Made by a program: the position numbers and the translations under genes. A DNA stretch of 64,000 bases from contig NZ_JABRPL010000001.1 in NCBI RefSeq assembly GCF_013249015.1, positions 186,001 through 250,000 on the forward strand, in the 5' to 3' direction. The notes under the pieces were generated by a model that did not search any database, was not told the DNA's origin, and worked only from the letters and a program-made list of their open reading frames with translations. Positions 5,968 through 51,906 of this stretch are shown here, one piece after another. Position 1 is the first letter of the stretch; every line of letters starts with the position of its first letter. This DNA comes from Rathayibacter agropyri (lineage in GTDB: Bacteria > Actinomycetota > Actinomycetes > Actinomycetales > Microbacteriaceae).

Positions 5968-5987
5968 CGGGCTCCGAAGCGGCGGCC

Positions 5988-15305: not shown

Positions 15306-15325
15306 TCCCCGTAAGGCGGTACCCC

Positions 15326-37404: not shown

Positions 37405-37626
37405 GTGGCGCAATTTAGCCTCCCCGCGAAGGTAGTCTGCCGGGACGGCTCTTCCCTCGTACCGCCCGGAACTACTGCCCTCATTGTGGTCAGCCTGAGC
37501 GCCAGCGTCGGTTTTATCGCCTTTGCTCTTGCGGCTCGAATTCGGTCTATGAGCCTGGCAGCTCGTGTCCTTCTCTCCGTGGGAGTCGCTTTCGTCTCCG
37601 CTGTACTTCTGCTTGTTGAGGTGTAA
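37405..37626 (+). CDS. Possible small two-span membrane protein
   Basis: A 73-residue reading frame from GTG 37405. Residues about 24-44 (TALIVVSLSASVGFIAFALAA) in shortened form and 50-72 (LAARVLLSVGVAFVSAVLLL) are strongly hydrophobic and are linked by a positively charged RIRSMS turn, the layout of a small membrane hairpin. No homologue is recognised and the ribosome binding site is weak. Third codon positions are less GC-rich than in neighbouring genes, consistent with foreign origin. It could be spurious. Confidence 0.35.
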   Translation: MAQFSLPAKVVCRDGSSLVPPGTTALIVVSLSASVGFIAFALAARIRSMSLAARVLLSVGVAFVSAVLLLVEV

Positions 37627-37682
37627 CCCACGTCGTCGGGGAGGTCGTCGCTCAGGCCACCCGCCCATTCTCCCCCGGGGAA

Positions 37683-38327
37683 CTACACCGAGACGAGTAG
37701 CGCGCGTGCCCCGTCGATCCCCGTCCCGTCGAGTTGCCAATCTGGGCGCACCAACGTCTCCGGAGTAACGCGGAAGCGTCTCTCCTCGACGCCTTTACCG
37801 TCCGGCCCGACGACGCGGTGGACGCCGTTCGGACGATAGCCGAGCGCCTCCGACACGCGAATCGACGCGGTATTCCACGACAGAGCAGCGCTTTCCGCGA
37901 CCTCTGCCCCCAGGTGGTCGAAGGCGAAGAGTAGCGCCGCTGCCCGCATCTCGCGGCCGAGTCCGCGCCCCTGCGCGGAGTGCGTGAGCCACGAGCCGGA
38001 GGCGAGCGTGCGCGTCGCCGCGAAAGACTCGGCGACGATGTCCTGGCAGCCGATGACCACGCCGTCCTCGATCACCGCGAAGGCGACGCGCCAGGAGCTT
38101 GGCAACGTGTGCGCGCGCAGCGACCAGTGGTACCGGGCGAGCTCGGCGGGCAGCCGCTCTGCCGGTGCCTGCGCCCACGGCGAGGGAAACGGCGAGCGGT
38201 CGGGCTCGTGGATCCCGGCGACGGCCGCGGCACCGAGTCCTCCGAGATCGGCGTCGCGCACCGGATGCAGCACGAGCCGCGGCGTGCGCAACTCCAGCGA
38301 GAACAGGGGCCAGGGGTCGATGCTCAT
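37683..38327 (-). CDS. GNAT acetyltransferase, RimJ/RimL-like
   Basis: A 214-residue GNAT enzyme that transfers acetyl from acetyl-CoA, typically to an alpha-amino group. Landmarks are ELRTPRLVLHPVRDADLGGL at the N-terminus, the acetyl-CoA loop region GSWLTHSAQGRGLGREMRAAALLFAF, and SWNTASIRVSEALGYRPNGVHRV, as in RimJ/RimL proteins. I chose ATG 38327, 6 nt after a TACCGT -10 box, over a start 14 codons upstream. It diverges from the RiPP precursor and shares the upstream region carrying the cluster palindrome, so it may acetylate the mature peptide, as reported for an acetyltransferase in the goadsporin cluster; it may equally be an unrelated housekeeping gene. Confidence 0.85.
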   Translation of the reverse strand: MSIDPWPLFSLELRTPRLVLHPVRDADLGGLGAAAVAGIHEPDRSPFPSPWAQAPAERLPAELARYHWSLRAHTLPSSWRVAFAVIEDGVVIGCQDIVAESFAATRTLASGSWLTHSAQGRGLGREMRAAALLFAFDHLGAEVAESAALSWNTASIRVSEALGYRPNGVHRVVGPDGKGVEERRFRVTPETLVRPDWQLDGTGIDGARALLVSV

Positions 38328-38398
38328 TCGAGCACGGTACAGCGGCGCGCTGGTGCTGGCCGATGCCACTCTGCGTGCCGCGGCGGGGCAGTCAGCGC

Positions 38399-38412
38399 AT
38401 GACGTCCGTCAT
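38399..38412. promoter_or_regulatory. Palindrome ATGACG-TC-CGTCAT upstream of the RiPP precursor
   Basis: A perfect 6-bp inverted repeat with a 2-nt centre lies in the 277-nt region between the GNAT gene and the precursor. The same pattern, ATGAC-N4-GTCAT, recurs at 51810-51823 before the ABC-2 exporter operon. It is the best candidate binding site for the cluster's LuxR-type response regulator. A possible -10 box for the precursor, TACCGT, lies downstream at 38482-38487. CCGGTGATA, at 38442-38450, is also found near the second palindrome. Confidence 0.6.
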
Positions 38413-38566
38413 CCGCTCTCGCTGACAGCGCTGCGTGTGAGCCGGTGATAGGGGGCAGTGCTGCTCGCGACCGGCGGCTTCTACCGTTGTGAACATCCGG
38501 ACGACGGGCGGCGGAATGGCTGCTCGGCCCGAGGAATCCCTCCCCATTCCGGACACCACCCCCTCC

Positions 38567-38583
38567 GTCGACTGCACGTCGAC
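38567..38583 (+). promoter_or_regulatory. Leader hairpin before the precursor ribosome binding site
   Basis: GTCGAC occurs at 38567-38572 and 38578-38583 with a 5-nt spacer. Because the hexamer is self-complementary the two copies can pair as a hairpin in the mRNA leader, ending 8 nt before the AGAAAGG ribosome binding site at 38591-38597. It could stabilise the precursor message or serve as a protein site; neither is shown. Confidence 0.35.
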
Positions 38584-38604
38584 CAACCTCAGAAAGGTCC
38601 AGTC

Positions 38605-38754
38605 ATGCCCAAGAACATCGCACTGAACGACATCGAAATCGAGACCCTGGTGAGCACCGAGGATCTCGAGGCTGAGACGGGCGGTGGAACCTTCGGAACC
38701 TTCGGCAGCGCGGGCTGCCCCGGTAGCTTCGGCACCTTCGGCTGCGGTAGCTGA
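38605..38754 (+). CDS. LAP/TOMM-type RiPP precursor peptide
   Basis: A 49-residue precursor, too small to be obvious without its context. The leader (1-27) is acidic, with NDIEIETLVSTEDLEAE, and ends in Gly26-Gly27. Val16 and Leu21 fall at -12 and -7 of a C39-type double-glycine site, although -4 is Glu24 where a hydrophobic residue is usual. The core (28-49) has no charged residue. It consists of six [T/S/C]-x-G triplets followed by Cys-Gly-Ser. Thr29, Thr32, Ser35, Cys38, Ser41, Thr44, Cys47 and Ser49 are each preceded by Gly, giving up to eight azole sites of the Gly-azole type known from microcin B17. AGAAAGG lies 7 nt before ATG 38605. Enzymes for heterocyclisation, oxidation and export follow. 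Confidence 0.85.
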   Translation: MPKNIALNDIEIETLVSTEDLEAETGGGTFGTFGSAGCPGSFGTFGCGS

Positions 38755-38764
38755 TCGGCGGGCG

Positions 38765-38809
38765 CTCGGGGGCCATGGGAGTTCGCATGCTCCCCGCCCC
38801 CGAGTTTGT
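38765..38809 (+). terminator. Attenuator or terminator hairpin after the precursor gene
   Basis: CTCGGGGGC (38765-38773) pairs perfectly with GCCCCCGAG (38796-38804), and an inner GGGAG (38777-38781) pairs with CTCCC (38790-38794). This gives about 14 paired bases, followed directly by TTTGT. It begins 10 nt after the precursor stop. A leaky terminator here would produce more precursor than enzyme message, a common arrangement in RiPP clusters. Confidence 0.7.
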
Positions 38810-38836
38810 CCAACCACCACGCACGTCGCCACGACA

Positions 38837-38861
38837 GCAACTCCCCGTGCGACGGAGTTGC
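38837..38861 (+). terminator. Second hairpin between precursor and P450 genes
   Basis: GCAACTCC (38837-38844) and GGAGTTGC (38854-38861) form a perfect 8-bp stem with a 9-nt loop, 32 nt after the first hairpin and 46 nt before the P450 start. It could be a second terminator, an RNA-processing site, or part of a control that lowers read-through into the biosynthetic operon. Confidence 0.45.
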
Positions 38862-38906
38862 CGCGGTTTCGGATCGCCATACCACGAGCGCAAGGAGAAG
38901 GGGCAC

Positions 38907-40133
38907 GTGATGACTCCCGGTCGAGAGGCCCGACTGCTCGCCCATCTGGGTCTTGGCGGCCCGCGCGGTCGCCGCCTCCGCCAACTTTTCGCAGAGGCAG
39001 CCAGCGATCACCTTGTGCTGCGCCGCGGTCGGCTCGTCGCTGTGTATGGCGCGGACGAGATCCGCGCGATCACCGCCTCCGACGCGGTCCAGATGCCGAC
39101 TCCGCGGTTCCCGCAGGCCGTGCGCGACGCCGTGCCCTCCTTCGTCGATCTCTTCGCCGAGACCCTTCCCTTTCGCGAGCCGGAGGCACACGCCCGGCTG
39201 CGCGGCATCCTCCTCAGCCATTTCACTCCGCGGAACGTGACGTCCCTCGACGCGCAGATCGCGGCTCTCGCGGCCGAACTCGTCGACGCGGCAGCGACGG
39301 GTGACACGGTCGATCTCGTCTCAGCCGTCGCCGATCCGCTCTCGACTCGAGTCATTGCGACCCTGATCGGCGCCCCCCGTCCGCTCTGGGAGGCACTCGA
39401 TCGCGCGGGTCACGCGATGCTCGCGCGCGTCACCACCACCTACCTCGGAGAGGGAGCGGCCTCCACCCCGCCCATCGATGAGAGAGGCTTTACCCAGGTG
39501 TGCGCGCTGCTGCGGGAGATCCTGAGCGCGCCGACCCTGCCCGCGCACTCGGTCGGCGCCTCTCTGCAAGTGGCCGTCGCTGCTGGGGATGTGACGGCGC
39601 GCGAGGCACTCGGTCTCCTCATGCTGCTCTACATGACCGGCGTCGACACGGTGGCGGCCGCGGTCGCCACGGCCGCCCTGAACCTGCTCGAGCACCCCGA
39701 TCGGGCAGCCGAGATCGCGCGCGACCCCCGTTGTGCGGGCCCGTTCGTTGACGAGGTACTCCGCTTGGACCCGCCGCTGCCCTACTCCATCCGCGCGGTG
39801 CGCTCGAAGGCGGAGGTCGCCGGCATTCGGCTTTCCCCGGGCGACCGCGTCGTGCTCTGCCAGGCGTCGGCCGGACTCGACCCGCGGCGTTTCCCCGATC
39901 CGCTTGCCTTCCTCCCCGGCGAGCGCCCGCCCTCGCTCTCCTTCGGTCACGGCCTGCACCGCTGTCTCGGGGCGGCTCTCGCTCGGCAGCAGGTGGCGGC
40001 GGTCGTCCTGCGACTGGCGACTCTCGGCGTGAGCGCGGAGTTCGACGACCTCGCCTGGACGCCTCTCCCGAGCATCCACACGCCCATCACGCTGCCGGTG
40101 CGGATTAGTGTCGCCGCGGGAGGAGCCGCATGA
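38907..40133 (+). CDS. Cytochrome P450 of the LAP cluster
   Basis: A 408-residue bacterial P450, probably a tailoring oxidase for the azole peptide. The I-helix oxygen-activation region is MTGVDTVAAAV, the ExxR pair is in VDEVLRLDPPLP, and the haem loop is FGHGLHRCLGAALA with the cysteine ligand near residue 353. It is soluble, with no membrane anchor. I chose GTG 38907 with AAGGAG 9 nt upstream (ATG 38910 is equivalent); the longer frame from 38775 runs through the hairpins. It overlaps the next gene by 4 bp. No ferredoxin or reductase is adjacent. Its position as the first gene after the precursor makes a role in maturation likely, but the reaction is unknown. Confidence 0.9.
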   Translation: MMTPGREARLLAHLGLGGPRGRRLRQLFAEAASDHLVLRRGRLVAVYGADEIRAITASDAVQMPTPRFPQAVRDAVPSFVDLFAETLPFREPEAHARLRGILLSHFTPRNVTSLDAQIAALAAELVDAAATGDTVDLVSAVADPLSTRVIATLIGAPRPLWEALDRAGHAMLARVTTTYLGEGAASTPPIDERGFTQVCALLREILSAPTLPAHSVGASLQVAVAAGDVTAREALGLLMLLYMTGVDTVAAAVATAALNLLEHPDRAAEIARDPRCAGPFVDEVLRLDPPLPYSIRAVRSKAEVAGIRLSPGDRVVLCQASAGLDPRRFPDPLAFLPGERPPSLSFGHGLHRCLGAALARQQVAAVVLRLATLGVSAEFDDLAWTPLPSIHTPITLPVRISVAAGGAA

Positions 40134-42133
40134 GGGCGCCGTTCGTCCCTCAGTCGCAGGAGGCCGATTGCGGTCCGGCTTGTCTCTCCTCCGTGCTCGC
40201 CGCGCACGGGCGCCTCGTTCCGCTCGGTGAGCTGGTCGCTGCCTCCGGCACGGGTCGCGGCGGCACCAGCGCGGCCGGACTTCTCCGCGCCGCCGCCGGA
40301 CAGGGGCTCGAGGCACGCGCCCACCGCTTGATCGGTGACAGCGGAGTCCTCGTGGCCCGCCTGACCCTGCCGATGATCGCCCTGCGAGCCGACCATCACT
40401 TCGTTGTCGTCGATCGCGTGACGACGCACTCGGTCTCGGTCGTCGATCCGGCCTCGGGACGCTCGCTGCTGCCGCGCGGCCAGTTCATCGACTCGTGCAC
40501 GGGCCTTTTCCTCTGCTTCACCCCCGGTTCCGCATTTCGCCAGGGCGGTCGCGCTCCCGCTGGCGCGTTCGGGCGACTGTGGCGGATGCTCGCTCCGGGC
40601 CAGCGCGTCATCGTCGCTCTCGCGATTCTCGCGAGCGCCGTCGCTGCCGCAACCGTGCTCGGCATGGCGGTCCTCCTGCGCGCAGGCGGGGCGCTGGAGT
40701 GGCCGCGGGATGCGCTCGTCGGTTGCCTCTTCGCCGCCGCCGCGGCCTCCGCGCTGGCCGGCTGGTGGGGAGCCGCAACCGTGACGGCGATCAGTGACCG
40801 CACGGTTCGGCCTGCCGCTCGTGAACTCGTCTCGCGGCTCATCCGCGTGACACCGGAGTTCGCCCGTGCTCGGTTCCTGGGCGAGGTGGCCACGCGTCCG
40901 CAGCGTCTTGACTCGGCCGTGGAGTCCTCCGCCGCCCTCGCCGTGCGCGCGGTCACTGCGGTGCTCACGGCCGTCATCTCCGTCGCGGCTCTCACGGTCA
41001 TCGCGCCGCGCGCAGGGCTCGTCGCCTTTCTTGTGGCGGTCGCGGTGAGTCTCCTAGGCCGCTGGCGAGGGGAGGGCGCGGCGGCGCTAGCCCGTGCCGT
41101 CTCGTCGGCCGAGGCAGCCAGGGACGGCGAGTTGATGCACTCCCTCGGTGCCCTCGACGTCCTGCGCATGGAGGCGGCGCCCGAGGCCCTGCTCCGGCGC
41201 TGGCAGAACGAGCAGGAACAGTGCGATGCACTGGGCGAGCGCCTTGGGCGGCGCCTCATGCTCGGTGATCGCGCACACCAGGCGGTGAGCGGGCTGGGTG
41301 TCTCCCTGGTGACGGTCGTCGCGTGGCTCGACACGGCAGATTCCCTCGCTGTCGCGGTGATTCCGCTGCTCGCGGGCGTCGTCCTCGCCGGCGTCACTGC
41401 CGTTCTCGAGGTCGTGCCCTCGGCCGCGACGCTCCGGCAGGCGTGGGGCGTCCTTGATGACGTCCCGCCGATCACCCAGCGCGTCGAGCAGAGAGACGAT
41501 GCGTTAGTTCCCGGAGCGCTGCGCTGTACCCGCGCCGTCTCCGCCCTGGGCGCCATCGCAATCGACCTCGATGTGGAGCCGGGGGAGCACCTGGTGATCA
41601 CCGGTCGCAGCGGTGTCGGCAAGTCGACGCTCCTGCGAATGCTCGCCGGTGTGGACGTGCCCGCAGCCGGCCGTGTCGCTCGCGGACCAGGACTGGTCGG
41701 CTACGTCCCGCAGCGACCCCTCTTCCTGGACGGCACCGTCCGCGACGCGCTCGCCTTCGGGCGCGAGCTTGACGACGACGCGCTTGCCGTGGCGCTCAGG
41801 CTGGTCGAACTCGATGAGGTCGTGCGTTCACGCGGTGGTCTCGACGCCACCGTGGTGCACGGCGGTGCCAACTTCAGCGGAGGCGAGCGCCAACGCCTCG
41901 CTCTCGCTCGTGCGCTCGCGGGTGCGGCGCCGGTCCTCCTGCTCGATGAAGCTCTGAGCGCCGTCGAAGACGGGCTCGCTGCCCGCATCCTCGCCCGCTT
42001 GCGCGACCGCACCGTCGTCTCGGTTGCTCACCGCGTCACCGACGTCCCGGAGGCGCGCCTTCTCGTGCTCGACGGGGAGGGCCTGCACGAGGCCGCGGGT
42101 CGGTCAGGAGCCGCGCGGGTGGACGCGCGATGA
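40130..42133 (+). CDS. C39 peptidase-containing ABC transporter (PCAT), leader removal and export
   Basis: A 667-residue bifunctional exporter. Residues 1-130 are a C39 cysteine protease with PQSQEADCGPACL (Cys14; Gln8 as likely oxyanion residue), His90 in DHHFVVVD and Asp106 in VVDP. About six membrane spans follow (residues 155-430). The ATPase has Walker A ITGRSGVGKSTLL, signature FSGGERQRLALARAL and Walker B VLLLDEALSAVE. C39 domains cut after Gly-Gly, which fits Gly26-Gly27 of the precursor. It overlaps both the P450 and the next ABC gene by 4 bp. The ATPase residues look competent. Confidence 0.92.
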   Translation: MRAPFVPQSQEADCGPACLSSVLAAHGRLVPLGELVAASGTGRGGTSAAGLLRAAAGQGLEARAHRLIGDSGVLVARLTLPMIALRADHHFVVVDRVTTHSVSVVDPASGRSLLPRGQFIDSCTGLFLCFTPGSAFRQGGRAPAGAFGRLWRMLAPGQRVIVALAILASAVAAATVLGMAVLLRAGGALEWPRDALVGCLFAAAAASALAGWWGAATVTAISDRTVRPAARELVSRLIRVTPEFARARFLGEVATRPQRLDSAVESSAALAVRAVTAVLTAVISVAALTVIAPRAGLVAFLVAVAVSLLGRWRGEGAAALARAVSSAEAARDGELMHSLGALDVLRMEAAPEALLRRWQNEQEQCDALGERLGRRLMLGDRAHQAVSGLGVSLVTVVAWLDTADSLAVAVIPLLAGVVLAGVTAVLEVVPSAATLRQAWGVLDDVPPITQRVEQRDDALVPGALRCTRAVSALGAIAIDLDVEPGEHLVITGRSGVGKSTLLRMLAGVDVPAAGRVARGPGLVGYVPQRPLFLDGTVRDALAFGRELDDDALAVALRLVELDEVVRSRGGLDATVVHGGANFSGGERQRLALARALAGAAPVLLLDEALSAVEDGLAARILARLRDRTVVSVAHRVTDVPEARLLVLDGEGLHEAAGRSGAARVDAR

Positions 42134-43884
42134 GCGCCACGCGCGAGGCGCAGGGGTCGGTCTTGGCCCCTCACCTTCGCTCGGCCGCGCGCGACGTGCG
42201 CTGGACTCTCCTGCTGGCGGCGGCGGCGACTCTCGCCGCGACCCTCCTGACCGGCTCGGCTCTGCTGGCCGCGATCGTGCTGGTCCCGCAGGGGAGGCTC
42301 GCCGAGGCACTGACAGCGGCAAGTGTTCTCGTGCTCATCGGTGCGCTCGTTGGCATCGTCGCCGATCGGGCCGGACTCTCGGCGCAGCGGCGACTCCTCG
42401 CCCGGCTGGAGGAGTCGGTGTGGTCGGCGCTCCTGCGGCAACCTCTGCACTTCTTCACGTCGCGCTCGATCCGCGAACTGCTCGGTTACGCGGGCAGCAT
42501 GAGCATGGTCCGTCGCCTCCTGGGCCCGCACTCACTCGAGGCGCTTCTGGCCAGCCTCTCGGTCGCGGCGATAACGATGATGCTCGCCGTCATCGATCCG
42601 TGGCTGGCCACGCGGGCGCTCATCGTTATGACGGGCATCGGTGCCGTCGCGCTCCAGCTCTTCCATCGTCAGCAGAAGCAGGACCTCGCAGTGATGCAGG
42701 AGGTGGAGTCGGCCCAGGCCACTCTCTACCCCGCCCTGATCGGACGCGACGAGGTCGAGGTCTTCCGGGCGCACAGCCACGTGCAGGCGCAGTGGCAGGC
42801 GAGCTTCACCCGCCAGAAGGACGCCGACCGTGCGGGCTTGCGTGTCGCCGACCCGGCGACCGCGGTGCTGCAGGCGACGCCGGCGATCTTCCTCGCTGTG
42901 CTCTGCCCGGCGGTCCTTGACTCGGGCGGGGGAGCGGTGGGGATCGGCACTCTGGCGATCCTCGCCGTCCAGCTGGGATCGGCGGTCGCGCGGCTCATTC
43001 CCGTGGTCCCTGCGCTCTTCTCGCTCGCGCTTGCCGACCGCCGCCTGCGGCCTGTCCTCGGCGGGGAGCGGCAGACCCGCACGACCGAGTCGGCCGCTGT
43101 GCCCCAGCCGCAGGCGGCGAGCGGTGCCGCCGGGCGTCTCGACCTGCAGGACCTCCACTTCCGTTTCCCCGGCGCTTCCACTCCGCTGCTCTGCGGCGCG
43201 AGCGCCAGCGTGGCCCCTGGCGAGATGGTCGCCGTCATCGGTCCGTCAGGATCGGGCAAGTCAACGCTCCTGCACCTGGTACTCGGCCTCGCATCACCCG
43301 AGGGCGGCGCTGTCCTCCTCGACGGTGTCGATGTTTGCCGACTTCCCGAGCAGGATCTGCGCCGGCGTCTCGCCGTCGTCGCGCAGGGCGGTGGACTCCT
43401 GCGCGGCACGCTCCGCGAGGCGGTGACCGGCTTCCGGGAGGGGATCGACGACGCGGCGATCCGACTCGCACTGCGTCGCGCCGGGTTGGATGACCTCGTC
43501 GCGAGCCTCCCGATGGGCCTGGAGACGAGGATCAGCGACGGTCGCAGCGGTTTCTCCGGGGGAGAGGAGCAGCGGATCCTGCTGGCGCGAGCACTGGTCG
43601 GCGCACCCTCCGTTCTGCTGCTCGATGAGGCGACGAGTGCCCTCGACCCGACGACGGAGGCCGAAGTGGTCGCGGCGGTCGCGGAACTCCAGGTGACGCG
43701 GATCGTGGTGGCCCACCGCCTCAGCACGATCCTGTGCGCCGATCAGGTGCTGCTCCTGCGCGACGGTCGTCTCCACTGCGTCGCCACCCGCGACCCGCAC
43801 CGTCTCGCCTCGCTCGTCGCGTCGGCCTCCCGCCGCGATCTCGAACCCTGCCCCCTTCTCACCCCGCAAGGAGTCCGTCCATGA
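42130..43884 (+). CDS. ABC transporter, membrane plus ATPase half-transporter
   Basis: A 584-residue type IV half-transporter without a peptidase domain. The membrane region (about 20-310) starts with LLLAAAATLAATLLTGSALLAAIVL in two parts, and the ATPase has Walker A VIGPSGSGKSTLL, Q-loop AQGGGLL, signature FSGGEEQRILLARAL, Walker B VLLLDEATSALD and H-loop VVAHRLSTI. It may pair with the upstream PCAT as a heterodimer or act alone in export or self-protection. It overlaps the PCAT gene (ATGA) and the cyclodehydratase gene (ATGA), so it is fully embedded in the operon. Confidence 0.9.
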   Translation: MSATREAQGSVLAPHLRSAARDVRWTLLLAAAATLAATLLTGSALLAAIVLVPQGRLAEALTAASVLVLIGALVGIVADRAGLSAQRRLLARLEESVWSALLRQPLHFFTSRSIRELLGYAGSMSMVRRLLGPHSLEALLASLSVAAITMMLAVIDPWLATRALIVMTGIGAVALQLFHRQQKQDLAVMQEVESAQATLYPALIGRDEVEVFRAHSHVQAQWQASFTRQKDADRAGLRVADPATAVLQATPAIFLAVLCPAVLDSGGGAVGIGTLAILAVQLGSAVARLIPVVPALFSLALADRRLRPVLGGERQTRTTESAAVPQPQAASGAAGRLDLQDLHFRFPGASTPLLCGASASVAPGEMVAVIGPSGSGKSTLLHLVLGLASPEGGAVLLDGVDVCRLPEQDLRRRLAVVAQGGGLLRGTLREAVTGFREGIDDAAIRLALRRAGLDDLVASLPMGLETRISDGRSGFSGGEEQRILLARALVGAPSVLLLDEATSALDPTTEAEVVAAVAELQVTRIVVAHRLSTILCADQVLLLRDGRLHCVATRDPHRLASLVASASRRDLEPCPLLTPQGVRP

Positions 43885-46181
43885 CCGTCCCCGTCCTGCG
43901 TTTCCGCCGCGACGAGAGCATCACTCCCGTTCCCGGTGACGGCGTCTTCATCACCTCTGAGCGCGGCGCAAGTAAGCGACTGCACGGTACGGCCGTCTCA
44001 GCCGCGTTTCCCCTCCTGGATGGCACGCTCAGCCGCGCCCAGGTCGTGGATCGGCTCGGCGCAGTGCTGGGCGAGCGTGCGGCGCACCACGCCGTGGAAG
44101 CACTGCTGAACTCCGGCCACGTGATCGAGGCGGACCCGGGAATCGACAGCGCGCGCGCTGGCTACTTCGAGCAGCTGGGCTTCGACGCCGACGACGCAGT
44201 TCGCCGACTCGACGCCGCGACGCTCGACGTCCTCGCCCTCGGTCGTGCCGGTGAACTCGACATCGACGCCGCCCTTCGGGGGACGGGCCTGCCCGTCACC
44301 CGCCACCGCGAGCTGCGCGAGGTACCGGAGTCGGCTCGCTTCCTCCTGGTCGTGACCGACGATTATCAGCGTGCCGAGCTCAGGAGCATCAATCGCGAGG
44401 CATGTCGACGGGGCCTGCCGTGGATGCCGGTGCGTCCGTACGGTGAGTCGGCGTGGTTCGGCCCGATGGTCACCCCGGGTGAGACTGCGTGCTTCGAGTG
44501 CCTGCACGTGCGCCTGCACAGCAAGAATCTCTCCCAATCGTACTTCCGACAGCGAGGGGCGCTGTGCGGTGACCCGGTGCCCACTGCTCTCGGGCTCGCC
44601 TCCGGGACAACGGCGGCCCTCGCGCTCGCAGCGCACGCGGTTGCTGTCCGGCTGGCTCGTCCGGCCGAGGTGCCCACGGAGGATGCCCGCCGGGCGGGCG
44701 ACGTCACGACCGTGGACCTGGGCACCCTGCGCTCCGTCCGCCACCGACTTGACCCACGTCCGCAGTGCGCCGTCTGCGGCGACAGCACCCTCCAGACCGA
44801 CAGGATGGCCGCGCCCGTGCGGTTGCAGTCGCGAGCGGCCGTGACCACGGGCGATGGGGGCCATCGCGCGATGAGCCCGGAGGACTTCACCGCCCGCTAC
44901 CGGCACTTCGTGAGTCCGATCACCGGGCCCGTCAGCCACCTCACCGAGATGCCGCGCCACGGCGAGGACCTTTTCGTCTATACGGCCGGTCAGAACTTCG
45001 CCGTCCCCATGCGGGGTCTCGCCGATCTCCGGGCGGGGCTGCGAAGCCTGAGCTGCGGCAAAGGCAAGTCACGCGCTCAGGCCGAGGCGAGCGCCCTTGG
45101 TGAGGCCATCGAGCGCTACTCCGGCCTCTTCCACGGCGACGAGCCGCGGGTACTCGCCCGCTGGAGCGAGCTCGGCCCCGACCGCGCTGTGCATCCCAAC
45201 ACGCTGCACCACTTCAGCGAGGCGCAGTTCCGCAACCGCGACGACTGGAACGCTCGCCCGTCGCACTTCCACTGGGTGGGCGATCAGCTCGACCCGGACG
45301 CACAGATCGAGTGGACGCCGGTGTATTCGCTCACCCGCGAGCGCCACATCCTTGTCCCCACCTCCGCACTGTTCTACGCCTTCCAGCCGGAGGCGAGCCC
45401 GTTCAACGCCTCATCGAACTCCAATGGCTGCGCAGCCGGCTCGTCGCTGGAGGACGCCGTGCTGCAGGGCTTCATGGAGCTAGTGGAGCGCGACGCGACC
45501 GCGATCTGGTGGTACAACCGCCTCCGCCGGCGCCGGATCGACCTCGACAGCTTCGATGATCCGTACGTCTCAGCGTGGCGGGAGCAGTACCGTCGGCTCG
45601 GACGGGAAGCCTGGGTACTCGACATCACGACCGACCTGGGCATCCCCACGGTCGTCGCCGTGAGTCGGCGGACGGACAAGCCGGCGCAGGACATCCTCTT
45701 CGCCCTCGGCAGCCACTTCGACCTGGGAATCGCCGTGGGACGCGCGCTCAGCGAGATGAACCAGTTCCTCTCGCCGGTGGCCGATATGCCGTCGGACGGC
45801 ACTGGTAGCTACCGCTTCGATGACGTGGCGCAGGTGGAGTTCTGGAAGACCGCCACCATCGAGGACAACCCTTTCCTCGCGCCAGACGACTCCCTTCAGC
45901 CGGTCCGCTCTGGCGACTACGAGGACCTGTCGACCGGGGATCTCGCGGCGGACGTGCGAACCGCCCAGCGCATCGTCGAGGAGGCGGGGATGGAGATGCT
46001 TGTACTGGACCAGACCCGCGTCGACATCGGCCTGCCCGTGGTGAGGGTGATCGTCCCGGGTCTTCGCCACTTCTGGCCGAGGTTTGCGCCGGGACGGCTC
46101 TACGAGGTCCCCGTGCGGAGGGGATGGCTCGACTCGCCCACTCCCGAGGACGAGCTGAACCCGATCGGGATCTTCATCTGA
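43881..46181 (+). CDS. TOMM cyclodehydratase: fused leader-binding E1-like and YcaO domains
   Basis: Makes azoline rings from Cys, Ser and Thr of the precursor with ATP. The 766-residue protein joins the two usual components. The N-terminal E1-like half (about 1-310) carries the leader-binding region and a zinc site formed by CFEC (204, 207) and CAVC (296, 299). The YcaO half (about 340-766) shows the ATP-binding stretch GKGKSRAQAEASALGEAIERY around 393-413, NSNGCAAGSSLEDAV and ELVERDATAIWW. The C-terminus ends NPIGIFI and lacks the PxPxP tail of many LAP YcaO enzymes. It overlaps its neighbours by 4 bp and 1 bp. ATG 43881 fits the coupling; the frame is open upstream through the ABC gene. 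Confidence 0.93.
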   Translation: MTVPVLRFRRDESITPVPGDGVFITSERGASKRLHGTAVSAAFPLLDGTLSRAQVVDRLGAVLGERAAHHAVEALLNSGHVIEADPGIDSARAGYFEQLGFDADDAVRRLDAATLDVLALGRAGELDIDAALRGTGLPVTRHRELREVPESARFLLVVTDDYQRAELRSINREACRRGLPWMPVRPYGESAWFGPMVTPGETACFECLHVRLHSKNLSQSYFRQRGALCGDPVPTALGLASGTTAALALAAHAVAVRLARPAEVPTEDARRAGDVTTVDLGTLRSVRHRLDPRPQCAVCGDSTLQTDRMAAPVRLQSRAAVTTGDGGHRAMSPEDFTARYRHFVSPITGPVSHLTEMPRHGEDLFVYTAGQNFAVPMRGLADLRAGLRSLSCGKGKSRAQAEASALGEAIERYSGLFHGDEPRVLARWSELGPDRAVHPNTLHHFSEAQFRNRDDWNARPSHFHWVGDQLDPDAQIEWTPVYSLTRERHILVPTSALFYAFQPEASPFNASSNSNGCAAGSSLEDAVLQGFMELVERDATAIWWYNRLRRRRIDLDSFDDPYVSAWREQYRRLGREAWVLDITTDLGIPTVVAVSRRTDKPAQDILFALGSHFDLGIAVGRALSEMNQFLSPVADMPSDGTGSYRFDDVAQVEFWKTATIEDNPFLAPDDSLQPVRSGDYEDLSTGDLAADVRTAQRIVEEAGMEMLVLDQTRVDIGLPVVRVIVPGLRHFWPRFAPGRLYEVPVRRGWLDSPTPEDELNPIGIFI

Positions 46182-47722
46182 TGGGCACCTTCACCGCCCG
46201 CGCGCAGAGCGTCCCCACGTCGCCGATGGGCAGCCGCACTCGGTCCCTCGGCCTGCGACCGGGAGTCGCGTTCGCCGATTCGGGAGACGGTCGCCTCACG
46301 GTGAGCGTCCGCGGCACCCCGGTAGCCCGTCTGACGGGGCTCTCGTCGGCTCTGTCCCGAGCCCTCGCCGACCTCGACTCGGCCGCCACCTCGATCCTGG
46401 ACGAGGAGTCACTCGCCGCCGAGTTCGCTCGTCTGCCGCAGATGGTCCGCGGATGTGTCCTCACCGCCGTCCGACTCGGGAACCGGACTCTGGCGCTCGC
46501 CGAGCCCCTGCGGGCGGGGGAGTCTCCGATCGAACCGGTGCCGCTCGAGCCGGCTGACCTCGTCCGTTCTAGCCCCTTTTCGTACAGCCATCGACAGAAC
46601 GACGAGCTGCTTATGGAGTCGCCCGTCGCCGGGTCTCGCGTCATCGCCCTCGATGACGGCCTGGGCCTCCTCCTCGCCGCGACCGCGCGTGCCTCTCGCG
46701 TCGATGACCTCGAGGGGCGGCTCGCCTGCGTCCTCCCCGCCTCGGCCGCGCGCGAGATCCTGGAGCTGATGCTCGGCGCGGGCGTCCTTGAGGTGGCGGA
46801 GCGCACATCCGGGACGTTCCCCAGCGAGACCGACCCGGTGTTGCGCCAGTGGGACTTCCACGATCTGCTCTTTCACTCCCGGTCCCGGTTCGGCCGCACG
46901 GCGGAGCCGTTCGGCGGGATTTTTCCGCACACCGGTCGCATCGAGCCCCGGCCAGCCGTCCGGGAGCGCCATGCGGGGCCGCTCATCGATTTGCCGGCGC
47001 CGTCGTTCACCGACGTCCTCCAGCGCGATCCGTCTCTCCTCCTGGCAATGGAGACCCGACACTCCTGCAGGACATTCGGCGAGCAGCCGCTGACCCTGGA
47101 TGAGCTCGGCGAGTTCCTGTTCCGGACCGCGCGGGTCTCGGCGGTCCGTGAGCCTGGCCCGGGCCTGCTCTACCAGGCGTCCCATCGCCCGTATCCCAGC
47201 GGAGGCTCGGCCTACGAGCTCGAGCTGTATCTCACCGTGCGTCGTGCGGCAGGTCTCGAGCCCGGTAGCTACCACTACGAGCCCGACGCGCACCGCCTTC
47301 GACGGCTCGATACCTCCGGGACCGATCGTGAAGCACTGCTCGCGGCCGCCTCGCTCTCGGCCGGGGGCACCGTGCAGCCGGACGTGCTCCTCACCATCAC
47401 CTCGCGGTTCCAACGGTTGCAGTGGAAGTACCGCTCGATTGCCTACGCCGTCTCGCTCAAGCACGTCGGGGTGCTGTATCAGACGATGTATCTCGTCGCC
47501 TCAGCAATGAAGATCGGGGCGTGCGGTCTGGGCAGCGGCGACAGCGAGGCGTCGGTTCGGGCGTTCGGTCTCGATTACCTCGAGGAGTCGTCGGTCGGCG
47601 AGTTCCTCCTCGGCTCCGCTCCGAGCGCCTCCCGGTCGCTGCCGTCTCCGCGCGACGAGGAAGACGATCAGGGCTTCCCGGGCGCCGACTGGGGCATCAG
47701 GGCCGCTCGCGCCCGCGCCTGA
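46181..47722 (+). CDS. SagB-type azoline dehydrogenase
   Basis: FMN nitroreductase-fold enzyme that oxidises azolines to aromatic thiazoles and oxazoles. The 513-residue protein is longer than single-domain SagB; its N-terminal 230 residues are poorly defined. The catalytic domain shows RHSCRTFGEQPLTLDELGEFL near 293, YPSGGSAYELELYLTV, SYHYEPDAHRLRRL, and Lys416-Tyr417 in QWKYRSIAYAVSLKH, equivalent to the catalytic Lys-Tyr pair of McbC. GACGLGSGDSE binds cofactor. The ATG overlaps the cyclodehydratase stop by one base (TGATG). Its presence predicts aromatic azoles in the product. It ends 24 nt from the convergent response regulator gene. Confidence 0.92.
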   Translation: MGTFTARAQSVPTSPMGSRTRSLGLRPGVAFADSGDGRLTVSVRGTPVARLTGLSSALSRALADLDSAATSILDEESLAAEFARLPQMVRGCVLTAVRLGNRTLALAEPLRAGESPIEPVPLEPADLVRSSPFSYSHRQNDELLMESPVAGSRVIALDDGLGLLLAATARASRVDDLEGRLACVLPASAAREILELMLGAGVLEVAERTSGTFPSETDPVLRQWDFHDLLFHSRSRFGRTAEPFGGIFPHTGRIEPRPAVRERHAGPLIDLPAPSFTDVLQRDPSLLLAMETRHSCRTFGEQPLTLDELGEFLFRTARVSAVREPGPGLLYQASHRPYPSGGSAYELELYLTVRRAAGLEPGSYHYEPDAHRLRRLDTSGTDREALLAAASLSAGGTVQPDVLLTITSRFQRLQWKYRSIAYAVSLKHVGVLYQTMYLVASAMKIGACGLGSGDSEASVRAFGLDYLEESSVGEFLLGSAPSASRSLPSPRDEEDDQGFPGADWGIRAARARA

Positions 47723-47746
47723 GAGGTGCGCGCGCAGGGCCGCGGC

Positions 47747-48358
47747 TCAGAGCCAGCCGGCGGTTCGTGCTGCGGTGACGGCCTCGGAGCGGGTTGTCGC
47801 GTTCAGTTTCGTCATGGCGTTCGACAGGTAGTTGCGCACGGTGCCCTGACTGAGGTGCATCGCTGCCGCGATCGCTGCCGTCCGCCGGCCCGCGGCGACG
47901 TGCCGGAGTAGCTCGATCTCGCGCTCCGTAAGCGGGTTGGCTCCCGCGCGAAGCGCTTCTGCCGCGAGCTGCGGGTCGATCGCCGTGCCGCCGGCGGCGA
48001 CGGTCCGGATCCCCTCGGTGAGGCGCGAGCCGGTGGTCGACTTGACCAGGTAGCCGTTCGCGCCGGCGCTGAGCGCTCGCGGCACGTGTCCATGACCGGG
48101 AAGGGCAGTCAGCAGGAGAATCGCGCAGTCGACCCCCGCCGCCCGCAGATCGGCCGTGGCCTCGATCCCGTTGCGGCCGGGCATCTCGACGTCGAGCAGC
48201 GCGACGTCGGGTCGTAGCCGGAGGGCCGCCTCGACGACGAGGTCGCCGCGCGTCACGCGTCCGACGATCTCGAAGTCCGGTTCGATGCCGAGCAGCACCT
48301 CGAACGCCTCCGCGACGAGGTCGATGTCCTCGGCGATGAGAATGCGCAACGTCCTCAC
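47747..48358 (-). CDS. LuxR/NarL-family response regulator
   Basis: A 203-residue response regulator. The receiver domain has Asp11 in AEDIDLV, the phosphoacceptor Asp56 in ALLDVEMPGRNG and the conserved lysine in GYLVKST. The C-terminal LuxR helix-turn-helix is LTEREIELLRHVAAGRRTAAIA, then SQGTVRNYLSNAMTKL. GTG 48358 overlaps the kinase stop by 4 bp, so the pair is coupled; the frame is open further upstream through the kinase. It probably binds the ATGAC-N4-GTCAT palindromes at 38399 and 51810, which would link product sensing to precursor and exporter expression (inference). Confidence 0.92.
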   Translation of the reverse strand: MRTLRILIAEDIDLVAEAFEVLLGIEPDFEIVGRVTRGDLVVEAALRLRPDVALLDVEMPGRNGIEATADLRAAGVDCAILLLTALPGHGHVPRALSAGANGYLVKSTTGSRLTEGIRTVAAGGTAIDPQLAAEALRAGANPLTEREIELLRHVAAGRRTAAIAAAMHLSQGTVRNYLSNAMTKLNATTRSEAVTAARTAGWL

Positions 48359-49566
48359 GTCAGCTCTCCCGATCGATCCGAGTGGACGGGGGGAGTCGAT
48401 GGGGGTGAGGTCCGCCCATCGACGCCGACCGCAGCTGAGGAACGCAAGCCGCTGATGCCGACGGGGAGCCGCGCGAGCACACGGAACGTCCCGGGCTCCG
48501 GACTGCCGGCCTCCAGCACGCCCCCGATCGCCTCCCAGCGCGAGCGGAGGCTTTGCAGCCCCGTCCCGCGCGTGTTCCTCGCCGTGTTGACCGGGCAACC
48601 GTCGTTCGCGATCGAGAGTTCGAGCACCCCGTCATCCTCGCTCACCCGAACCCAGCAGCGCCGAGGGCGTGAGTATTTCAGCATGTTGGTCACCGCCTCG
48701 CGCACGATCACGGCAGCCAGTCGCTGCGTCTCTGTGTCGCCAGCGCCGTCGATTCGGCTGTCCCAAGCGATCCCGACCTGCTCGCAGAGTTCCTGCGCGC
48801 AGCGCAGCTCGACGTGGAGGTCGGCGGAAACGGGTCCGTTAGTGAGTGAGCGCAGCGCCGCCTGACCCTCAGCCACGATCGCGCTTGACGCACGCAGCTG
48901 CACCGCAGCCTCGTCAGTGCTCCCGAGCTCGAGGAGGCGCAGCACGGCCTGCTCGCGCAACGAGACGGCGACAAGAGTGCGGCCAAGGATGTCGTGCAGA
49001 TCCCTCGAGATCCGGTAGCGCTCCTCGTCGACCCTGAGTCGCGCCACCTCCTCGCGGGTGTAGACGAGGCCGTCGGTGACGACGGCGAGGCGAATGGGGA
49101 TGTACATCGCGAAGACAGTGAGCACGGGCATCGTCACGAGCAGGCTCAGATCGTCGACCGACCAGTCGGGCGTGCTGAAGACCTCAAGGACGAGGTTCGT
49201 CAGGACTGCGCAGAGCGCGATCAGCCCCGGCCCACCGCCGTAGGCGAGAAAAACGCACGCGGCCCAGACGCAGCTCAGAGTCCAGTCCGCCATCCATCCG
49301 CTTGCGAGGACGAGGGGCCCAACGACGATCAGCGCCAGGAGGAGAGAAGTTGTGCGGGGAGCACCGGACGCTACTCTCACCGACGCGACGGTCACGATCG
49401 CCACCACGATGATGAGGCCGAGCTGCGCAGCGACGGAGGTTGGCGACGGAGGGGTACTCGGCTTGGTAGCAATGATCATCGACACGATGAGGAGGAAGAC
49501 AGCGATCAGGACGCTGCCAACGAAGCTGACGCGCGATTCCGCCGACAGCCGTCGCCATCGGATCAC
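48355..49566 (-). CDS. Sensor histidine kinase (HisKA_3, NarX/LiaS/DesK type)
   Basis: A 403-residue membrane kinase. Five or six hydrophobic segments between residues 14 and 165 form the sensor region without a large extracellular loop, as in intramembrane-sensing kinases responding to cell-envelope antibiotics. The HisKA_3 phosphoacceptor is His191 in RISRDLHDILGRTL, and the ATPase domain has VREAVTNMLKYS and GTGLQSLRSRWEAIGG. I chose GTG 49566, with GAGGG 7 nt upstream. A TATGCT -10 box at 49597-49602 lies 6 nt before an alternative in-frame GTG at 49590. It is followed by its regulator and preceded on the same strand by the ABC-2 exporter operon. Confidence 0.9.
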   Translation of the reverse strand: MIRWRRLSAESRVSFVGSVLIAVFLLIVSMIIATKPSTPPSPTSVAAQLGLIIVVAIVTVASVRVASGAPRTTSLLLALIVVGPLVLASGWMADWTLSCVWAACVFLAYGGGPGLIALCAVLTNLVLEVFSTPDWSVDDLSLLVTMPVLTVFAMYIPIRLAVVTDGLVYTREEVARLRVDEERYRISRDLHDILGRTLVAVSLREQAVLRLLELGSTDEAAVQLRASSAIVAEGQAALRSLTNGPVSADLHVELRCAQELCEQVGIAWDSRIDGAGDTETQRLAAVIVREAVTNMLKYSRPRRCWVRVSEDDGVLELSIANDGCPVNTARNTRGTGLQSLRSRWEAIGGVLEAGSPEPGTFRVLARLPVGISGLRSSAAVGVDGRTSPPSTPPVHSDRSGELT

Positions 49567-49640
49567 TGGTGTTCCCTCAAGTTCGTGCACTCGTGCAGCA
49601 TACGGAAGCAAAGCTCGCCTCCGGCCGTCAAGAGATGGCG

Positions 49641-49663
49641 ACAGCATCACCGAGAGATGCTGT
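49641..49663. repeat. Inverted repeat between the membrane peptide and kinase genes
   Basis: ACAGCATC (49641-49648) and GATGCTGT (49656-49663) are a perfect 8-bp inverted repeat with a 7-nt centre. On the minus strand it lies after the small peptide gene and about 40 nt before the kinase -10 box. It could end the ABC-2 operon or be an operator for the kinase-regulator pair. It does not match the ATGAC-N4-GTCAT palindrome. Confidence 0.4.
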
Positions 49664-49783
49664 GACCAGATCAGAACTCGCCTCTCCCGTGTCGTTCCTG
49701 GTCAGGGGAGTCGATGCTGGTCGCGTCGTGTCCGTTTTTGACGTGTCGCGAGTGGTGGCGCACTGCGCTGTGAGGGGGGAGGG

Positions 49784-49900
49784 TCAGCGTTCGCGCCGAC
49801 GACGAGCGAGATTGCGCACCAGTCCGATCGCGCCGGCGCAGACGCCGAGAGCAATTCCGGCCACGAAACCGAACTGGTTGAGGAAGGTGGAGATGTCCAC
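49784..49900 (-). CDS. 38-residue membrane peptide with a polybasic tail
   Basis: A short reading frame from GTG 49900 with a strong AAAGGA ribosome binding site 7 nt upstream. The peptide starts MDISTFLNQFG, has one hydrophobic span FVAGIALGVCAGAIGLV (residues 12-28) and ends in RNLARRRRER, so it is predicted to sit in the membrane with its positive tail in the cytoplasm. It follows the ABC-2 permease after 31 nt on the same strand and is probably co-transcribed. It might be an accessory subunit of the exporter, an immunity peptide or a small stress peptide; nothing decides between these. Confidence 0.55.
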   Translation of the reverse strand: MDISTFLNQFGFVAGIALGVCAGAIGLVRNLARRRRER

Positions 49901-49931
49901 GGTGAGGTCCTTTCCGATCGGGGACGAGCAG

Positions 49932-50768
49932 TCACCGCGTCCGCGGGTCCCACCGAAAGAAGGAGTTGAAGAGCATGAGCCCGAGTCCCGCCCAGACCCC
50001 CAGAAGCACGAGGGCATGCCAGGTCGAGCCGAAGCCCTCCATCACGCCCAGTTGCCCGCCGACCGAGGAGCCGGAGACGTCGTAGCCGAGGTAGGCCGTG
50101 CGCACGGTGTCCACGATCTCGGCCGAGGGAACGTAGGGCCTCACAGAGTCCAGGACTGGCGTGTCCGGCATCGTGGCGAACGCGCCGGAGAAGAAGAGCA
50201 GGGCCGCCAGCACGGGCGTGACGATCCACGTGGCGATCTCGCCCGAGGGCAGCAGTCCCGACACTCCGAAGGCGAGCATCGCGAGGGCAGTGAGCCCCAC
50301 CAGTACGACCACGATGAGGAGCGGCCAATTGGCCGGCCACTCCACGCCGAGCCAGAGGCGTCCGGCGACGATAACCACTGTCACCTGCACGACCGCCGGG
50401 ATCGCGCTAGAAATTGCCTCCCCGAGCAGCACTGCGTGCGCGGGGACGGGAGCGCAGCGCAGGCGTTTGTAGATGCGCTGCTCCCGCCTCCTGGCCGCCG
50501 AATTGATGACGTTGTAGACGACGAAGACGAGGGCGACGGCCAGGCCGCCTGAGAGCAGCCATGACCGCGCCGACACGCCCTCGATCCGCGCGTCGACGTC
50601 GGCGAGGGCGGCGGGAAGAAGCCCGAACGCGAGCGGCATGACTGCTCCTACCAGGGCGAAGGCGACGTCCTTCCAGTACACGCGCTGGCTGAGGGCCACG
50701 TGCGCGGCCAGGAGGCGGAGGGTGCGCATCGCGGGAAGGGCAGAGTGCGTCGCAGCAGGGGGGGTCAT
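49932..50768 (-). CDS. ABC-2 type transporter permease
   Basis: A 278-residue membrane protein with about six spans, including VALVFVVYNVINSAARRREQR, AVVQVTVVIVAG, LLIVVVLVGLTALAMLAFGVSGLL and WHALVLLGVWAGLGLMLF, the layout of ABC-2 permeases that export drugs or peptides. The ATG shares one base with the stop of the upstream ATPase gene. It is probably the membrane half of a self-protection exporter for the azole peptide, given the adjacent two-component system and the shared palindrome. The substrate is inferred, not shown. Confidence 0.88.
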   Translation of the reverse strand: MTPPAATHSALPAMRTLRLLAAHVALSQRVYWKDVAFALVGAVMPLAFGLLPAALADVDARIEGVSARSWLLSGGLAVALVFVVYNVINSAARRREQRIYKRLRCAPVPAHAVLLGEAISSAIPAVVQVTVVIVAGRLWLGVEWPANWPLLIVVVLVGLTALAMLAFGVSGLLPSGEIATWIVTPVLAALLFFSGAFATMPDTPVLDSVRPYVPSAEIVDTVRTAYLGYDVSGSSVGGQLGVMEGFGSTWHALVLLGVWAGLGLMLFNSFFRWDPRTR

Positions 50769-51751
50769 CAGTGTCCTCCGTCGTGGGGGTTGTCCTCGGT
50801 GGCCAGCGTGAGGAAGAGGTCTTCGAGCGAGGAATGCGAGACCGTGATCGCGTCCAACTCGAGGCTCAGCCGCGACGCGCGCTCGAGGAGCCGGGTGAGG
50901 TCGGCTTGTGGGCCGGTGCTTGCGAAGCTCACCGCGCTGCTCCCAGCGCTCGGGCGCACGTCAGCGGCGAATCCTCGCAGCAACTCCTCCAGCTGTGTGC
51001 CGAGGGCCCTCGTCTCGAAGGCGACCGTGCTGGTGCGGTGAGAAGCAAGCACCTCGGTCAGCGTGCCCTGCACGCGGATCGTGCCGCGGTGCATGATCGC
51101 CACGCGGTCGGCGAGCTGCTCTGCTTCGTCGAGGTAGTGGGTGGTCAGGATGACGGTGAGTCCCTCATCGACAAGCGAGCGCACGATCTCGAGCGAGCGG
51201 CGACGGCCCTCCGGATCCATGCCCGTCGTCGGCTCGTCGAGGAACAGCAGCTCGGGGTGGCCGAGCAGCGCGAGAGCGAGGTCGAGTCGACGGCGCTCGC
51301 CTCCAGAAAGCTGCTTCACCCGGACGCGCGCTCGGTGTTCGAGGCCGACGAGATCAAGCGACTCCCCGATCGTCCGCGAGCGAGGGTAGAAGCGCCGCCA
51401 CGAGCCCACAGTCTGCGCCACCGTCAGGTCCTCGAAGAAGCCTGCGTCCTGCAGCATGATCCCCTGGCGTGGTGCGATGCGATCGTGGTCGACGAGCGGG
51501 TCGGCGCCGAGGACCCGGACCGAGCCCTGCGTCGGCGCCCTGAAGCCCTCCAGCACGTCCAGGGTTGTGGTCTTGCCCGCCCCATTCGTGCCGAGCAGGC
51601 CGAAAACCTCGCCCCGGCGGACCGAGAAATCGATACCGTCCACAGCGCGGGAGCGCCCGTACTCGACGACCAGTCCTGCGACGGTCACGGCGGTGTCCTC
51701 GTCGTCGGCATCGCCGATCAACGGAGGCGAGAGTGGATTCGACGCGATCAT
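50768..51751 (-). CDS. ABC transporter ATPase (drug or peptide exporter)
   Basis: A 327-residue ATPase with Walker A LLGTNGAGKTTTLDVL, Q-loop MLQDAGFF, signature KQLSGGERRRLDLALAL, Walker B LLFLDEPTTGMD and the H-loop in TTHYLDEAEQ, followed by a C-terminal DUF4162-like extension of about 95 residues, typical of CcmA/DrrA-like exporters. It heads the minus-strand unit ATPase-permease-small peptide. The palindrome ATGAC-N4-GTCAT lies 59 nt upstream of its ATG. No clear ribosome binding site is visible, so the start may be slightly different. Confidence 0.9.
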   Translation of the reverse strand: MIASNPLSPPLIGDADDEDTAVTVAGLVVEYGRSRAVDGIDFSVRRGEVFGLLGTNGAGKTTTLDVLEGFRAPTQGSVRVLGADPLVDHDRIAPRQGIMLQDAGFFEDLTVAQTVGSWRRFYPRSRTIGESLDLVGLEHRARVRVKQLSGGERRRLDLALALLGHPELLFLDEPTTGMDPEGRRRSLEIVRSLVDEGLTVILTTHYLDEAEQLADRVAIMHRGTIRVQGTLTEVLASHRTSTVAFETRALGTQLEELLRGFAADVRPSAGSSAVSFASTGPQADLTRLLERASRLSLELDAITVSHSSLEDLFLTLATEDNPHDGGH

Positions 51752-51809
51752 CAGCCCAGGTTGGCTGGACTGCCGGTCCTCGAGCAGAGTGGGGTATCAC
51801 CGGTATGGC

Positions 51810-51823
51810 ATGACAGTTGTCAT
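51810..51823. promoter_or_regulatory. Palindrome ATGACA-GT-TGTCAT upstream of the ABC-2 operon
   Basis: A perfect 6-bp inverted repeat with a 2-nt centre, located 59 nt before the ATPase start. It matches the site before the RiPP precursor (38399-38412) at all ten positions of ATGAC-N4-GTCAT. The minus-strand 9-mer CCGGTGATA (51795-51803), also present near the first site, lies between the palindrome and the gene. Candidate operator for the cluster response regulator. Confidence 0.6.
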
Positions 51824-51906
51824 CTCTCGCGGCGGACCCGAGGTGAGACGGCGCCGTCAGCCGCCTGCGATGCGTCACGGGAGATCGGCGTCAATCCGCC
51901 CCGCGG

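Follow-up and report, generated by a model that had tools for sequence, protein, structure and literature searches.

Here we describe a biosynthetic gene cluster in a 64,000-nucleotide stretch of the genome of Rathayibacter agropyri (contig NZ_JABRPL010000001.1, positions 186,001 to 250,000; 69.7% G+C), which is called the window below and whose numbering is used throughout. The genus Rathayibacter is grass-dwelling. The cluster is intact and is likely to direct the synthesis of a linear azole-containing peptide (LAP), i.e., a ribosomally synthesized and post-translationally modified peptide (RiPP) of a class whose members are often antibiotics. The product would derive from a dehydrated-azole RiPP family but lack the dehydration. 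This reading is supported by enzyme domains that score above curated cut-offs, by a three-residue period in the precursor cores, by a fully supported clade of six loci, and by a cytochrome P450 in every one of them.

The precursor and its parts are as follows.
38605..38754, plus strand: precursor peptide, 49 aa, with homologues in loci L001, L002, L086, L087 and L144
38605-38685, plus strand: precursor leader, residues 1-27, ending in ETGG
38686-38751, plus strand: precursor core, residues 28-49, GTF GTF GSA GCP GSF GTF GCG S

The core has a strict period of three residues, (Gly-[Cys/Ser/Thr]-X)x7-Ser, and the triplet frame begins exactly at the Gly-Gly site where the C39 peptidase of the cluster should cut. 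Gly precedes all eight Cys, Ser and Thr residues of the core (shuffle P ~5e-6), and shuffled sequences reach its phasing with P ~0.0005. It contains four Phe residues and no charged side chain. The five loci with homologues belong to R. iranicus NCPPB 2253 (L001), Flexivirga caeni (L002) and three other genomes (L086, L087 and L144). Their ten precursors keep the period, two of them imperfectly. Counted from the [C/T]P anchor, the triplet centres are Cys, Ser or Thr in 77 of 80 cases across the 11 precursors, and in nine of the 11 every centre is of this kind (shuffle P 1e-5 to 0.002 per precursor). Besides Met1, only the Pro is invariant. Between the window and R. iranicus all eight Cys/Ser/Thr positions of the core are kept as such, three of them with the letter changed. 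A run of at least seven Cys/Ser/Thr-centred triplets occurs in 39 small open reading frames (among 15,261 in 160 loci and the window); those of the 39 with Gly, Ala or Ser before at least five centres and at most one Cys/Ser/Thr after them all belong to the six-locus clade. The preliminary description of this DNA overlooked the period. Nor did it mention that one Pro is invariant, that every member has a P450 or that the dehydratase LanB has apparently been lost.

NCBIfam precursor models were run on 10 of the 11 known clade precursors. NF033629 (“RiPP_CPAC”, cut-off 60 bits) is passed by a precursor of L144 (L144a, 67 bits), and the window precursor scores 9.7 bits with it. Models of NHLP or Nif11 leaders gave no listing up to E 5 for the 49-residue window precursor, i.e., no sign of a proteusin. 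Several loci carry more than one precursor: L144 has three different ones in a row (16188-16676), L087 three and L086 two, as if several products were made by one enzyme set.

Three modifying enzymes are encoded.
38910..40133, plus strand: cytochrome P450, 407 aa, with the heme motif FGHGLHRCLG and the motif TGVDT (Pfam PF00067)
43881..46181, plus strand: fused E1-like (leader-binding)/YcaO cyclodehydratase, 766 aa (PF02624, TIGR03604, TIGR03882)
46181..47722, plus strand: SagB/ThcOx-type azoline dehydrogenase, 513 aa (TIGR03605 above its cut-off, PF22767)

The cyclodehydratase exceeds the curated cut-offs of TIGR03604 (267 bits against 219) and TIGR03882 (130 bits against 36.9). In the PDB it matches TruD (E 5e-151) and LynD (E 1.3e-150), and the dehydrogenase matches CyaGox (5lq4, E 1.7e-63). 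These cyanobactin enzymes are the closest solved relatives of the window YcaO and SagB by sequence; no PatA/PatG-type protease, however, was found among the window proteins scanned, and a C39 exporter is present instead. The assignment to the LAP or thiazole/oxazole-modified microcin class, made in the preliminary description, held when the YcaO/E1 and SagB homology was tested: an E1-like and a YcaO domain are accompanied by a precursor with a leader and a Cys/Ser/Thr core that adjoins the enzymes, and no dehydratase was matched in the 64 kb. The C-terminal end of the YcaO protein reads NPIGIFI, and endings of the NP-x-x-F type occur in 12 kin looked at; they were not used as evidence.

In a tree of 40 YcaO sequences chosen among the loci, which excluded the partial L101 and most loci of the first search, the window, L001, L002, L087, L086 and L144 form one clade with a support of 100/100, and within it L087 is placed next to the group of L002, the window and L001. 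A P450 was matched at E 1e-3 in the window and all five other clade loci, in none of 13 sister-group loci (L088, L089, L145-L155), and not in L090; the heme and TGxDT motifs are present in all six clade P450s. At 1e-5, four of 16 further loci (L090-L105) have a P450 match (28-33%). NHLP-like precursor leaders were spotted by eye in L088 and L089 of the sister group. A looser form of the triplets, with many Ser residues after the centres, was seen in five tandem SCP precursors (9847-11119) of L158 (genome G652, loci L157/L158), which came to light by a sub-threshold NF033629 score of 27.8 bits and whose YcaO is 28% identical over 439 residues. Two side observations concern other relatives. In L102 a related fused YcaO is accompanied by four tandem precursors (5262-7259) whose leaders are NHLP-like and whose ends are rich in Cys, and L101 (genome G021, of the R. 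iranicus family) has a precursor-like open reading frame at 11160-11507 ending in CCCPCCCCCP beside a YcaO relative.

YcaO relatives were searched for in several samples of genomes, which overlap one another. They were found in two of 398 genomes of the R. iranicus family at 1e-40 (one of 15 in its genus), in one of 396 genomes of its order at 1e-180, in 30 of 394 genomes of the class of Flexivirga at E 1e-60 (10 of 186 in its family), and in 14 of 250 genomes of the family of G667 at 1e-175; in the family and order of G426, G426 was the sole match. Among 72,556 plasmid records 20 had a relative at E 1e-60, all under 60% identity; one of them, H14, has no annotated P450 or SagB and was set aside. 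Wide surroundings were examined at 32 places and two more, and around other YcaO matches about 5 kb or less, so that precursors there may be missed.

The three LanB pairs used as queries had no match at E 1e-3 in the 64 kb of the window, and neither TIGR03891 nor PF14028 was matched among the window proteins scanned (20 with Pfam and 10 with NCBIfam). This agrees with the preliminary statement that neither LanB nor a pyridine-forming enzyme is encoded, and neither of these two hallmarks of a thiopeptide was found among these proteins. One LanB query, that for the elimination protein of L087, was probably in the wrong frame. LanB had no match in 20.7 kb of L001 and, apart from a weak out-of-frame match over sagB, none in 22.3 kb of L002. 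The LanB query of L086 gave weak matches in L002 (E 7e-5) and L089 (E 6e-4); the former lies out of frame over sagB because the L086 query reading frame begins inside sagB. Thus the goadsporin-like split LanB is missing from these stretches of the window, L001 and L002 and is present in L086 and L144 by PF14028 and TIGR03891 (in L144 also by PF04738) and in L087 by similarity, the elimination proteins of L086 and L144 matching L087 at 15065-15865.

The cores differ accordingly. Ser or Thr stands directly before the triplet centre in none of 21 triplets of the three LanB-free cores versus 14 of 55 in the eight others (Fisher P 0.008), or versus 14 of 59 (P 0.016) if four irregular triplets of L086a and L087a are included; both P values overstate the evidence, because the LanB-free loci form one nested branch, so that the sequences counted are related and the test probably captures a single loss. 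LanB was also matched in L158, a more distant locus with SCP precursors; this supports the view that CP-type precursors originally went with LanB. We infer a single loss in the nested branch of the window, R. iranicus and Flexivirga.

The remaining features bring the number counted from 38605 to 51751 to twelve.
38752..38830, plus strand: stem-loop directly 3' of the precursor gene (RNA fold -39.6 kcal/mol, z -2.6)
40130..42133, plus strand: C39 peptidase-ABC exporter (predicted leader cleavage and export), NHLM-ABC1-like (PF03412, PF00005)
42130..43884, plus strand: second ABC exporter subunit, NHLM-ABC2-like (TIGR03797)
47747..48358, minus strand: NarL/LuxR-type response regulator, 203 aa (PF00072, PF00196)
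48355..49650, minus strand: membrane-embedded HisKA_3 histidine kinase with a hydrophobic N-terminal half (PF07730, PF02518)
49784..49900, minus strand: 38-aa membrane peptide with a single span and an Arg-rich tail, VDISTFLNQFGFVAGIALGVCAGAIGLVRNLARRRRER, encoded between the genes of the kinase and the ABC-2 permease
49932..50768, minus strand: ABC-2 permease (PF01061)
50768..51751, minus strand: DrrA-like ABC ATPase (PF00005; TIGR01188 220.8 bits, below the cut-off of 312)

Hairpins stand at the equivalent place in L001 (z -1.9, a stability reached by 6 of 200 shuffled sequences) and in L002 (z -5.8), and the stem-loop between the precursor and P450 genes may set the ratio of precursor to enzyme expression. 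The best NCBIfam match of the C39-ABC protein is TIGR03796 (220 bits, below the equivalog cut-off of 853) and that of the second ABC protein TIGR03797 (302 bits, below the cut-off of 709). The C39 domain has QEADCG near its N-terminal start and then a later His and Asp, which we take to be the catalytic residues, and the motifs of the ABC proteins are in place. The second ABC protein is probably the partner of the first. Both exporters listed in the preliminary description are present, but they appear to form a single NHLM-type pair, not two separate systems. The ATPase and the ABC-2 permease, both matched in all five other clade loci, are probably a self-protection exporter; the two-component system was matched in four of the five. 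The 38-aa peptide, missed earlier, is preceded by a sequence resembling a ribosome-binding site and has a counterpart in L001, with a ratio of nonsynonymous to synonymous substitution rates (dN/dS) of 0.14 over 38 codons; in L002 a counterpart was looked for and not found. It may be an immunity or signalling accessory.

All gene types named in the preliminary description are present in the window with open reading frames. Its statement that the biosynthetic genes overlap by 1-4 bp holds from the P450 gene to sagB (4, 4, 4 and 1 bp), while the precursor and P450 genes are separated by 155 bp. Its start, at 37683, was too early: 37683-38369 holds a GNAT gene that belongs to the host locus, with spacer beyond it, since GNAT occupies the same locus in cluster-free Rathayibacter, and the true extent of the cluster is 38605-51751. 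The GNAT protein had been considered as a cluster N-acetyltransferase by a presumed analogy with goadsporin; this was ruled out by the same comparison and by the lack of a match in L001 or L002. The stretch 37068-37690, between a luciferase-like gene and the GNAT gene, has a low G+C content (59%), short matches to IS481 transposase genes and no match in the cluster-free Rathayibacter loci compared; it was ruled out as part of the cluster.

The cluster sits in the interval between the GNAT gene and tRNA-Leu (51905-51989). The site was compared across 15 Rathayibacter genomes, excluding the sites of G303 and G385, where the luciferase-like match is only distant. In 10 of the 15 it is free of the cluster, with 826-906 bp from the luciferase-like gene to pdtaR and GNAT and tRNA-Leu between them. 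In two more (G404 and G223; loci L120 and L121) GNAT adjoins tRNA-Leu, with no cluster and no luciferase-like match at the limit used. The fifteenth, R. iranicus, has the cluster and lacks GNAT at the site. Its locus is the closest one to the window: DNA identity is about 88-90% in long aligned blocks on both sides, and the protein of the pdtaR-like gene is 100% identical over 201 residues.

Between the window and R. iranicus, dN/dS is 0.11 for YcaO, 0.13 for the response regulator, 0.25 for the kinase, 0.24 for the P450, 0.31 and 0.15 for two pieces of SagB, and 0.21 and 0.18 for the ABC-2 pair; in the precursor it is 0.12 for the leader and 0.74 for the core over 22 codons. The synonymous divergence (dS) of cluster genes is similar to that of the flanks (0.18-0.39 versus 0.28-0.35 in two flanking genes tested), so an arrival after the split from R. 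iranicus is not supported. The cluster was likely gained earlier within the genus, since its occurrence there is patchy (1 of 15 genomes). In R. iranicus (L001 9361-13837) most of both exporter genes has been lost and sagB has a frame break, while the precursor, P450 and YcaO genes are open; the kinase stretch compared there has one in-frame stop, most likely before the listed GTG start at 15637. The low dN/dS and the broken copy together point to a cluster that was under selection in the common ancestry of both and is now being lost in R. iranicus.

Several observations weigh against our reading of the cluster, in addition to the overstated Fisher P. The period is broken in two of the 11 precursors, L087a (6 of 7 centres, shuffle P 0.08) and L086a (6 of 8, P 0.16). 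The window precursor reaches 20.1 bits with NF033482 (“thiocillin family RiPP”), under the cut-off of 25 that five of the ten clade precursors tested pass: those of L001 (30.3) and L002 (25.8), L087c, L086a and L086b. L158 keeps Cys-Pro in five precursors, yet in its 19.9 kb no P450 match is better than E 0.25 and there is no heme motif; this argues against a tie between the Pro and the P450. The two-component system is unmatched in the 19.9 kb of L087. The broken copy shows that R. iranicus, a near relative, can do without the trait, and the search for LanB in the window strain covers only 64 kb of the producer genome.

If the cluster works as its domains suggest, the E1-like half of the fused enzyme would bind the short leader of the precursor, the YcaO half would cyclise the central Cys, Ser or Thr of every Gly-[C/S/T]-X triplet, and SagB would oxidise the azolines. 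Each Gly-C/S/T pair would become one azole amino acid, and the mature chain would be (azole-X)7 with a C-terminal Ser able to close too. The P450 may add an oxygen or a cross-link, the invariant Pro being one candidate site. The C39-ABC protein, paired with the second ABC protein, would cut after Gly-Gly and export the 22-residue core. The predicted [M+H]+ is 2001.81 for the unmodified core, 1841.60 with eight azoles and 1857.60 with one oxygen more. The two-component system would sense the peptide or envelope stress and drive the ABC-2 pair, perhaps with the 38-aa membrane peptide, for self-protection. A likely ancestor would also have dehydrated Ser/Thr with a split LanB, and the branch that would have lost LanB has neither Ser nor Thr just ahead of an azole position.

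The product is probably antibacterial. That a functional azole peptide serves instead for signalling or for interaction with plants, nematodes or metals is unlikely, although the cluster is rare and patchy, the peptide could be a signal perceived by the kinase and regulator, and, according to PMC4603692, low concentrations of goadsporin promote morphogenesis; the ABC-2 pair in all five other clade loci and the two-component system in four look like self-protection. YM-216391, a macrocyclic polyazole, contains a phenyl-oxazole derived from Phe. The four Phe residues of the window core and the P450 beside a fused cyclodehydratase would suit a similar product, perhaps also macrocyclic, in which the P450 beta-hydroxylates Phe before cyclisation. 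We consider this quite unlikely, as Phe is replaced by Ala or Leu in part of L002 and is scarce in L086 and L087, yet all six loci have the P450; no macrocyclase domain was found among the window proteins scanned. It is very improbable that LanB is encoded elsewhere in the genome and that the product is a thiopeptide-type or dehydrated peptide similar to goadsporin or thiocillin: half of the clade precursors tested pass NF033482 and three kin encode a split LanB, but the stretches of the window, L001 and L002 searched hold no LanB apart from the out-of-frame match, and in their cores Ser/Thr never directly precedes an azole position. Finally, a decaying, silent cluster as in R. iranicus, which the lost exporters and frameshifted sagB there and the scrap resembling an IS481 transposase gene close to the window copy might suggest, is hardly credible, given that all window genes are open with P450 and ABC motifs in place and low dN/dS.

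The linear azole-containing peptide favored here has not been named in the literature searched, in agreement with the preliminary description: no azole peptide of such make-up is among the matches listed, and no search was made by the name Flexivirga. The novelty is nevertheless smaller than was suggested there. Existing NCBIfam models (NF033482, NF033629) already cover the precursors of some kin, published LAPs carry an azole at each third position or azoles in blocks of three residues (phazolicin, nostatin A), and fused YcaOs related to this one are no rarity among Actinobacteria, as the 30 of 394 genomes indicate. Both NCBIfam families resemble the clade precursors in the acidic leader and in the Cys/Ser/Thr core with [C/T]P; unlike the thiocillin case, the window cluster has no LanB and so no thiocillin-type product is expected. 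We found no characterised member of the CPAC family (NF033629) in the literature, most subscription journals being outside the search. The accessible text of Cox et al. 2015 (PMC4603692) describes no group of this make-up, and “P450” is absent from its main text. According to the same source, goadsporin is similar in its actinobacterial fused cyclodehydratase and dehydrogenase, and L086, L087 and L144 also share its split LanB; the window differs in having no LanB and in having a P450, the C39 exporter and the ABC-2 and two-component systems. A different cluster of R. toxicus, with dehydratase domains, a cyclodehydratase and FMN oxidases, is mentioned in the portion of PMC5552033 available; the G+C content of R. 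toxicus is given as 61.5% in a table of PMC6965331, which differs from that of the window.

The closest published parallels concern the period. Phazolicin is a Rhizobium LAP that blocks the ribosome exit tunnel (PMC6783444, as far as its available text goes). Like the product predicted here it is linear and has eight azoles, one at every third residue; its cluster, phzEACBD, has no P450 named in that text, in contrast to the cluster in the window, and its Arg residues contact ribosomal RNA, whereas the window core has no charged side chain, so that a phazolicin-like target is just a possibility. Nostatin A, an azole proteusin, is alike in the three-residue azole blocks and in the invariant central Pro, which is alkylated there. 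In the accessible part of its description (PMC11583998) it has an NHLP-type leader, a LanM-like dehydratase gives dehydroalanine or dehydrobutyrine before most azoles, and the Pro alkylation is ascribed to a radical SAM enzyme; here, instead, Gly or Ala precedes each predicted azole (always Gly in the window core) and a P450 is present. By analogy, we offer as a speculation, itself unlikely in full, that the P450 modifies, perhaps on the invariant Pro, a peptide in which azoles alternate strictly with other residues, that one branch discarded LanB and has only Gly/Ala before the azoles, and that the uncharged, fully azole rod plugs the ribosome exit tunnel, as phazolicin does, or hits another target.

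If our reading of the cluster is true, the six loci are a natural experiment in which the same azole machinery and P450 occur with and without a dehydratase and the cores differ accordingly. One could then test how RiPP cores are shaped by tailoring enzymes and what an azole peptide gains from dehydroalanine, and the exact mass prediction would be a practical lead for a new azole antibiotic.

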